The position numbers and the translations under genes were made by a program. This document shows positions 22,680 through 50,795 of a stretch of 64,000 bases of DNA, piece by piece. Source of the stretch: Clostridiaceae bacterium (GTDB taxonomy: Bacteria > Bacillota > Clostridia > CAYPLH01 > DUMO01); the NCBI GenBank assembly GCA_012839865.1, contig DUMO01000051.1:1-64000 (forward strand). The letters run 5' to 3'. Positions within the stretch are counted from its first letter, which is position 1, and each line of letters begins with the position of its first letter. The notes beneath the pieces are model-generated. The model was given only the letters and a program-made list of their open reading frames with translations, was not told the origin of the DNA and made no database searches.

Positions 22680-22938
22680 GGGGTTCAGGCAAATAAAGCA
22701 TTTATCGGAAAATATATTTCCCGAAAATGTAAGTTGATTATATTACTTTGAGCCTCTGATGTCAAGGTGAACAGCAGTATCAGGGATCAGCCTGCTCGAT
22801 AATTGTTATTGTTAAGATGCGCTTTCCTATAAACCATACAACAAGAAAACAGACACAAAACTGAATAAATGAAATTCATGCAAGAACAAAATAAAGCTAT
22901 TTGCCATTGTTCGCAATACATTTCATTTATTCTGCTCG
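22680..22938. other. Intergenic region before gltX
   Basis: About 260 bp between the gltX leader hairpin and the end of the membrane acyltransferase gene. It must contain the gltX promoter on the minus strand, but I could not pick a convincing -35/-10 pair. No gene seen. Confidence 0.4.
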
Positions 22939-23640: not shown

Positions 23641-24060
23641 GATCTACCTTCAATATTTGTTTTTATTGTTCTTTATATTTGATTATATCAATTTTTATTT
23701 GACGCCGCCAGTAGTTGCCATCTTCTTGTCCCGGAAAAAGGATGAGTAGTTGGGTTAATGATCAATAAACCGGTTATATGGCATTCCTGCTTTTTTACGG
23801 GCTGTCGGTTTTCTTAAAATAAAAGCCTTGTTCTTAGAAAAGCCCGGGGCATCGAGCCCTGCTCACTTTTGGCTGGATTTACTTCGCAAATGGCCCTGTT
23901 CAGTATACATTTCATATATGTCAGGTTACGTCTGAATAGCAGCAGGGTTAGTACGGACAAAGATTGTGTATCCTGACGGCTATGGACTTAATATTGATTT
24001 TTATGCTAAAATTAGACTGTCCATGTTTTTACAAAGCAGCAAAAAAGGAGGGAATTTTTG
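23641..24060. other. Intergenic region with dispersed repeat copy A
   Basis: 420 bp without a gene. It contains copy A of the dispersed repeat (23803-23922) and, at its right end, the GGAGGG ribosome binding site of the nitroreductase gene. The regulatory sites of both flanking genes were not clearly identified. Confidence 0.6.
23803..23922 (+). repeat. Dispersed MITE-like repeat, copy A
   Basis: About 120 bp sharing blocks with copies at 37.7 and 50.5 kb: GTCGGTTTTCT, GAGCCTTGTTC-like, AGAAAAGCCCGGG, GGCTGGATTT, CGCAAAT-GCCCT and ATACATTTC. The block around 23871-23895 can form a hairpin (GGCT...GGCC enclosing ATTT/AAAT). It lies in a gap between two unrelated genes. This copy lacks the GCGAACC block at its left end and has a more diverged sequence. 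Confidence 0.75.
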
Positions 24061-37326: not shown

Positions 37327-37737
37327 AACCGGTACCTGATGTATTTCCTTTATATTGCCCAGGGCAAAAGATGCTGCAAATTCGTTTATCGCAAGTTATT
37401 TTATTTGCAGCAGTTCGCTCATCCCATAGAGGTAATACTGCTAGAGCAATATATGTTTTCCATAGTAATTATTCCTTTCATATGATATTTGCTTATCTTT
37501 ATTGTGTTGTATGACTCACCGCATATATTTTATTGCCAATCAAACCCTTTACGGTCTTTTCCTGAAAAACTCTTATGCACCATTTTTTAAGTCACTGTAG
37601 CTGAAATGTATGATGAACAATAATAACCGGCTTCATTTTGTTAGAAAACCAGGTTCGGTAAAGGCAAAAAATGCTTGAAAAAAAAGGTGTTTTTTCACTT
37701 TTTGAGCCATTAAGAGCAAGTAAAAGCGGTAGCATTT

Positions 37738-37864
37738 TCAGCGAACCGTCGGTTTTCTAAAATAAGAGCCTTGTTCCAGAAAAGCCCGGGGGCATCGAAC
37801 CACGCTCGCTTTCGGCTGGATTTGTTACGCAAATAGCCCTGTTCTGCATACATTTCGTTCATGC
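37738..37864 (+). repeat. Dispersed MITE-like repeat, copy B
   Basis: Matches copy C closely in inverse orientation: GCGAACCGTCGGTTTTCT, GAGCCTTGTTCCAGAAAAGC, CGCTCGCTTT, GGCTGGATTTG, CGCAAATAGCCCT, TTCTGCATA and ATTTCGTTCATG blocks are shared in the same order. A segment at about 37640-37676 (AGAAAACCAGGTTCG... AAGGCAAAAAATGC) matches the other end of copy C, so the element may be longer or rearranged here. Confidence 0.8.
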
Positions 37865-50437: not shown

Positions 50438-50795
50438 TAATGGTTATTATTTAAAAATAACCTTACATGAACGAAATATATGCAGAATAGGGCTATTTGC
50501 GAAGCAAATCCAGCCAAAAGCGAGCGGAGATTGATGGCCCGAGCTTTTCTGGAACAAGGCTCCTATTTTGAGAAAACCGACGGTTCGCTGAAGGCAAAAA
50601 TACATTTCATTCATGTGAGATTATGTCTGAACAGTAGCTGCATAACTCATTTATCCGGGAAAACTAATAAATAATGCTTGACAAAGATAATGAAGCAATT
50701 TAAAATTAGGTGTAAAGTAAAATTACTTAACACCTTTTTGTTTTGCTTGCTCTTTGCATTTTACAAAAAGGTCGTGAGAATGCCTGGTGGTAATT
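50438..50795. other. ftsY-ylxM intergenic region
   Basis: 358 bp filled largely by dispersed repeat copy C (50465-50616). After it, an AT-rich stretch leads to the ylxM ribosome binding site. Such insertion between ftsY and ylxM-ffh is atypical of the compact cluster. Confidence 0.6.
50465..50616 (-). repeat. Dispersed MITE-like repeat, copy C (with inverted ends)
   Basis: 152 bp bounded by 17-bp inverted ends: ACATGAACGAAATATAT (50465-50481) and, at 50600-50616, ATACATTTCATTCATGT, whose complement differs at two positions. In reverse orientation it matches copy B almost block by block. The internal GGCT...ATTTGC-TTC-GCAAAT...AGCC (complement of 50488-50513) is a hairpin. No coding capacity. 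Flanking target duplications were not obvious. Confidence 0.8.

Follow-up and report, generated by a model that had tools for sequence, protein, structure and literature searches.

A mobile palindrome that seems to carry a known RNA motif and, in one genus, occupies former terminator sites

The repeat at positions 50465-50616 of the window (the whole 64-kb stretch of DNA that was analysed) is a decayed, internally deleted derivative of a dispersed palindromic family and, taken alone, an ordinary decayed repeat. The family itself is a modular palindrome, dispersed through the source genome, with matched arms and a long hairpin, M2, that falls within the RNA family TwoAYGGAY (RF01731); in one other genus the RNA-bearing element shows insertion polymorphism at terminator sites. 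We consider it probable that the window repeat, copy C, is a dead copy, with an internal deletion, of a MITE-like, gene-less fold-back palindrome that carries TwoAYGGAY at the tip of M2 and spreads via hairpins.

Copy C starts 28 bases past the stop codon (50437) of ftsY and ends before ylxM (50787), the gene names being those assigned by an earlier reader. A preliminary description gave it 17-bp inverted ends with two mismatches, and the left end, ACATGAACGAAATATAT, does match the reverse-complemented right end, ACATGAATGAAATGTAT, at 15 of 17 positions. It also described the repeat as free of coding content, and no open reading frame of at least 80 amino acids fills the interval, some frames overlapping its edge only. 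The internal hairpin that it reported is present as well, but as two hairpins, which make up module M3. The right ‘end’ is just the outer part (50602-50616) of the family end, the inner part having been deleted, and the tip and arm A of the large hairpin M2 are missing. The family is represented in the window by the following features.

50465-50616, plus strand: copy C, an internally deleted composite of left end, M3, arm B of M2 and outer right end (direct reading, BLAST)
50473-50489, plus strand: left terminal inverted repeat of copy C, with 2 mismatches to GAAATGTATGCAGAACA (end-motif search)
50490-50548, plus strand: module M3 of copy C, two adjoining hairpins, GGGCTATTTGCGAAGCAAATCCAGCC followed by a GC-rich hairpin (compared with complete copies)
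50553-50601, plus strand: arm B of module M2 in copy C; the RNA motif would lie on the minus strand; tip and arm A absent (comparison with other copies)
50602-50616, plus strand: right end of copy C, outer part, with palindromic flank (direct reading)
37603-37856, plus strand: copy B, a full-length composite that keeps both ends; its two GGA loops are degraded, and the 28 RF01731 matches do not include it
23804-23921, minus strand: copy A, truncated to an end, M3 and part of arm B
22908-22924, minus strand: end-like motif with 3 mismatches, a probable short-form remnant

No match to RF01731 reached the gathering score in the window; copy C, its tip deleted, is absent from the 28 matches of the genome and has one weak terminator-like match. 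We infer that RNA function is now absent from copy C. Between copy C and ylxM, positions 50678-50740 hold a strong promoter-like site (TTGACA, 17, TAAAAT), directly followed by a hairpin and T-run (AGGTGT...ACACCTTTTT, found by eye), possibly a leader with early termination. Just past copy C, at 50625-50638, lies GTCTGAACAGTAGC, a motif with 9 genome matches (at most 1 mismatch) that is often found near elements. A wider element bounded by GTCTGAACAGTAAC was rejected, as that motif matched just 9 times.

As a BLAST query, copy C gave 46 matches in the source genome (2.74 Mb). The terminal motif GAAATGTATGCAGAACA, with up to 3 mismatches allowed, occurs 140 times genome-wide compared to 7 times for a reversed-pattern control, and within the window the end motif is found 7 times compared to a mean of 0.42 over 100 shuffles. 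The dispersed matches and the 140-to-7 difference thus show that the feature is real and no chance palindrome. The two related copies reported near 23.8 and 37.7 kb are genuine, being 82% and 89% identical where they match (BLAST), and the 46 matches exclude the case in which only these three copies exist.

Complete members are built from a terminal repeat, the long hairpin M2 and the two-hairpin module M3, which sits between one M2 arm and the adjacent end; full copies occur with or without M3. Among the fetched loci, 35 elements could be followed from one end to the other; 10 measure 44-82 bp, 3 measure 112-134 bp, 15 measure 201-204 bp and 7 measure 251-266 bp. Judging from their sequences, most of the short forms look like deletions of the M2 tip, and a 58-bp form could have arisen through a deletion between two TTGTTA repeats. 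With MITEs the family shares its short length, its lack of coding capacity, its terminal inverted repeats and its many copies. At two other places in the source genome (L027 and L028; C26:23632 and C41:239615), M3 forms part of a larger inverted-repeat composite of another kind, which has another GCGAAGC hairpin; repeat families thus seem to have modules in common. A NiCo riboswitch (L023, 1852-1935; 52.9 bits) lies downstream of one copy of the element.

Outside the source genome, the exact 20-base end gave two single matches, to unrelated records, in a contig collection from which the source genome was excluded. A DNA search of 59 same-class genomes found no match, nor did plasmids and phages match a source-genome element, or viral contigs two core patterns. 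A phage or plasmid origin was set aside on the plasmid, phage and viral searches; the element of another carrier genome, G365, gave only short, weak matches, and the one inspected was not a transposon.

In an Rfam scan of one intact copy, M2 matched the full TwoAYGGAY model with 42.1 bits, slightly short of the gathering score of 43. Searching the whole source genome with RF01731 returned 28 matches, of which 9 were at or above gathering and the best scored 54.6 bits. M2 belongs to TwoAYGGAY (clan CL00106) family-wide; copy C itself does not. A 2010 survey lists TwoAYGGAY as a probable RNA (PMC2864571), and a later paper puts forward the unvalidated prediction that it is an sRNA of Clostridia that binds CsrA (PMC4333381). 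In the titles, opening lines of abstracts and passages that our literature search covered, subscription papers and supplements lying outside it, nothing joined TwoAYGGAY with mobility.

The source genome has one CsrA gene. Among 391 genomes of the same class, 35 have TwoAYGGAY and 124 have CsrA; CsrA is present in 30 of the 35 genomes with TwoAYGGAY and in 94 of the 356 others, counts that are not independent because related genomes share history. Of the five TwoAYGGAY genomes without CsrA, three are just 80-88% complete. By family, all 12 with TwoAYGGAY fall within the 37 with CsrA (86 labels), a rough tally since it rests on table reading and the highest label seen. In ten genomes selected for having TwoAYGGAY matches, a recount gave 4 to 18 copies each. 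Mid-copy hairpin loops of 102 copies from six genomes carry GGA 121 times and TCC 5 times, a count that is partly circular, as the Rfam model itself favours GGA. The GGA forms include CAGGATG and CATGGATG and fit a CsrA site; in many copies a single GGA loop remains.

As the comparison genomes for the source genome are no closer than class, we sought empty sites in the genus of G365, another carrier, with the sister genomes G241, G200, G135 and G392. There, the RNA-bearing element stands where sisters carry an intrinsic terminator hairpin. Between the genes for an FMN-binding protein and apbE (names read from the translations), G365 has an element of ~297 bp, compared to 24-25 bp in G241, G200 and G135; in G392 the form is short. 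At the empty site there is an intrinsic terminator hairpin with a T-run after it. In G365 and G392 the element has taken the place of the upper hairpin, whose base is retained along with the T-run.

We then searched the four sisters for joined flanks, using 8 of the 18 further loci of G365. The gap at L269 is 109-112 bp in all four sisters and 349 bp in G365, and at L256 it is 80-91 bp in the three sisters that have both flanks and 375 bp in G365; given the flank identities, the simplest account of both is a gain on the G365 branch. Two loci are occupied in sisters (L262 in four, L266 in three), and L252, L253, L259 and L260 show mixed states that include short forms. The empty forms at L269, L256, L253 (G241) and L252 (G241) are terminator hairpins too; the whole hairpin is replaced at L269, whereas its base is kept at L256. 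At the L253 site (L253, L281, L283, L292) the element has opposite orientations in G365 and three sisters, so that either the element inverted or the site was hit twice. The RNA-bearing element of this genus therefore shows the insertion polymorphism of a MITE, and the empty sites in relatives that the preliminary description had proposed to look for exist there. Its suggestion of a structured, mobile RNA or termination module holds for intact copies, which carry TwoAYGGAY, and for the related genus, with its replaced terminators, but not for copy C, which lacks the RNA tip.

The placement of copies relative to genes was assessed with a simple longest-ORF caller. In G365, 14 of the 18 further copies lie between convergent genes, compared to 8 of 68 neighbour pairs in the background (gaps of at least 60 bp, 140 kb of the genome; Fisher p 1.4e-7). 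The source genome has no such excess, with 5 of 33 elements whose gene orientation was assigned. There, 12 of 14 tandem RF01731 copies are nearer the 3′ end of the upstream gene and 11 of 14 are antisense to the flanking genes, a mixed outcome in which the latter count speaks against a sense-strand 3′ UTR model for this genome. The tandem and orientation counts leave out 20 of 71 copies from four other genomes and 2 of 28 from the source genome, and L198 and L212 were dropped from the orientation counts because their flanks were too short.

The arms of each palindrome are matched more closely than family resemblance between copies provides. In the source genome, terminal arms within a copy differ at 41 of 595 sites, compared to 78.8 (sd 3.2) when arms are permuted (5000 permutations, lowest 64 mismatches). 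An alignment of 20 M2 copies has more than one Watson-Crick type at 15 of 17 outer-stem pairs compared to 4 of 57 inner pairs. The palindrome also extends past the end motif with copy-specific bases: over 40 elements, including 5 with diverged ends that were picked manually, the summed run length is 174 compared to 126.5 (sd 9.2), and flank runs of at least 7 occur in 8 copies compared to 2.1 expected. This run-length test is significant; a flank test with locked positions, run on 35 elements, did not reach significance (857 of 10000 permutations). Beyond the Rfam model, the arms of the G201 and G312 copies are long, near-perfect and different between copies. Two causes may account for the matching: landing inside a host hairpin, as at the G365 sites, and template switching, through which one arm would be corrected from the other; PMC8794818 describes template switching as a known mutation route.

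The strongest competing explanation is that TwoAYGGAY is a true regulatory RNA family whose intact copies are transcribed and bind CsrA, as a sponge or for 3′ UTR control, with dispersal secondary; the arms would then covary because the RNA stem is selected. The membership of M2 in RF01731, the co-occurrence with CsrA, the partly circular preponderance of GGA loops and the earlier prediction of CsrA binding all speak for it. Selection on RNA, however, predicts that on the RNA strand G-U should far outnumber A-C mismatches. We counted 185 GU and 160 AC in the arms and 87 GU and 69 AC in the core, so that G-U is not clearly in excess; G201 alone gave 33 GU and 18 AC, and a rough terminator-like control, which includes chance hairpins, 44 GU and 20 AC. 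These counts lean toward a DNA-level cause and against strong RNA selection, without being decisive, owing to the chance hairpins in the control and to mismatches common to related copies. The antisense position of most tandem copies in the source genome, the many copies left with just one GGA loop and the loss of the loops from copies A, B and C also weigh against a regulatory RNA, and we regard this explanation as rather unlikely.

Less probable still is a classical MITE whose parent, a DDE-type insertion sequence, is no longer present in the genome. The family has shared inverted ends, size classes and no genes, and the ends of the G365 element (GGGGTTGTC...GACAACCCC) look like those of an insertion sequence. 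Against this, we found no excess of direct repeats flanking 35 complete elements, so the target-duplication mark of a MITE, and with it a plain MITE that duplicates its target, is not borne out; terminator tips are replaced rather than duplicated, and the arms within one copy change together. A REP/REPIN-like repeat mobilised in trans by a RAYT (Y1) transposase would agree with the palindromic, intergenic character and the lack of target-duplication excess, and a PF01797 search of the source genome did find a Y1 transposase, of 262 aa, as its single match; this gene is flanked by GGGGACGGTTC repeats and not by the ends of the element, which makes the idea very improbable.

That transposase (L106 1060-2030, C67), with GGGGACGGTTC-type inverted repeats on both sides, resembles a RAYT that has a REP family of its own; it is the only Y1 transposase found in the genome and belongs to the GGGGACGGTTC repeat, and we accordingly dropped a RAYT-driven REP. 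The GGGGACGGTTC-type repeat also adjoins several elements. Among the 100 of 140 end motifs listed, there are wider-spaced pairs in opposite orientation. Neither the target duplications nor the transposase with matching ends that the preliminary description had named as checks was therefore found, the latter within the reach of the PF01797 search; its reading of a non-autonomous mobile element stands on the dispersed copies, the shared inverted ends and the empty and occupied sites of the related genus.

Known systems resemble the element in part. Like TwoAYGGAY RNA, it has an M2 that in intact copies matches the whole model, and GGA loops on one strand; that family is described as a structured RNA, whereas in the present elements it forms the tip of a DNA palindrome that is dispersed and insertion-polymorphic, and the motif is gone from copy C. 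SPRITE, BOX and RUP of Streptococcus pneumoniae are likewise small, modular intergenic repeats that insert into one another, SPRITE being terminator-like (PMC10969869); compared by description and not by sequence, they differ in that the passages of that paper mention neither CsrA-type loops nor terminator replacement. QMITE1 and QMITE2 of Coxiella burnetii are, in passages of PMC5896051, dispersed non-autonomous elements carrying RNA, bacterial MITEs that give rise to sRNAs, QMITE2 mainly in 3′ UTRs and intergenic DNA. According to the same passages they have direct repeats of 2-3 or 7-11 nt, unlike the source-genome elements, at which none are in excess. REPs and REPINs with a RAYT are palindromic, intergenic and of high copy number, but a RAYT gene flanked by the element was not found, the sole Y1 transposase being linked to another repeat.

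Returning to a fold-back palindrome that spreads via hairpins, we propose that the element docks in or replaces hairpins without target duplication, by a route that may be single-stranded, may depend on template switching or replication, or may use an enzyme beyond those found. Its arms would be kept matched largely at the DNA level, and deletions across the hairpin would yield the short forms, copy C included. The same route presumably operated in the source genome too, the empty sites having been seen in the other genus only.

A broader reading, which we offer tentatively, is that TwoAYGGAY may be a mobile palindrome of Clostridia and not a plain sRNA family, one that replaces terminator hairpins and owes its covariation partly to DNA-level correction of the arms. 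Each move would give a gene end a CsrA-type module, so that the CsrA network would be rewired by transposition. If this is true, an Rfam family described as a structured RNA rides on a mobile element, and its covariation and copy number need rereading; there would be a direct way to test the spread of CsrA-type sites through a genome, and terminator hairpins would become a safe place, open to testing, for small mobile DNA to land.
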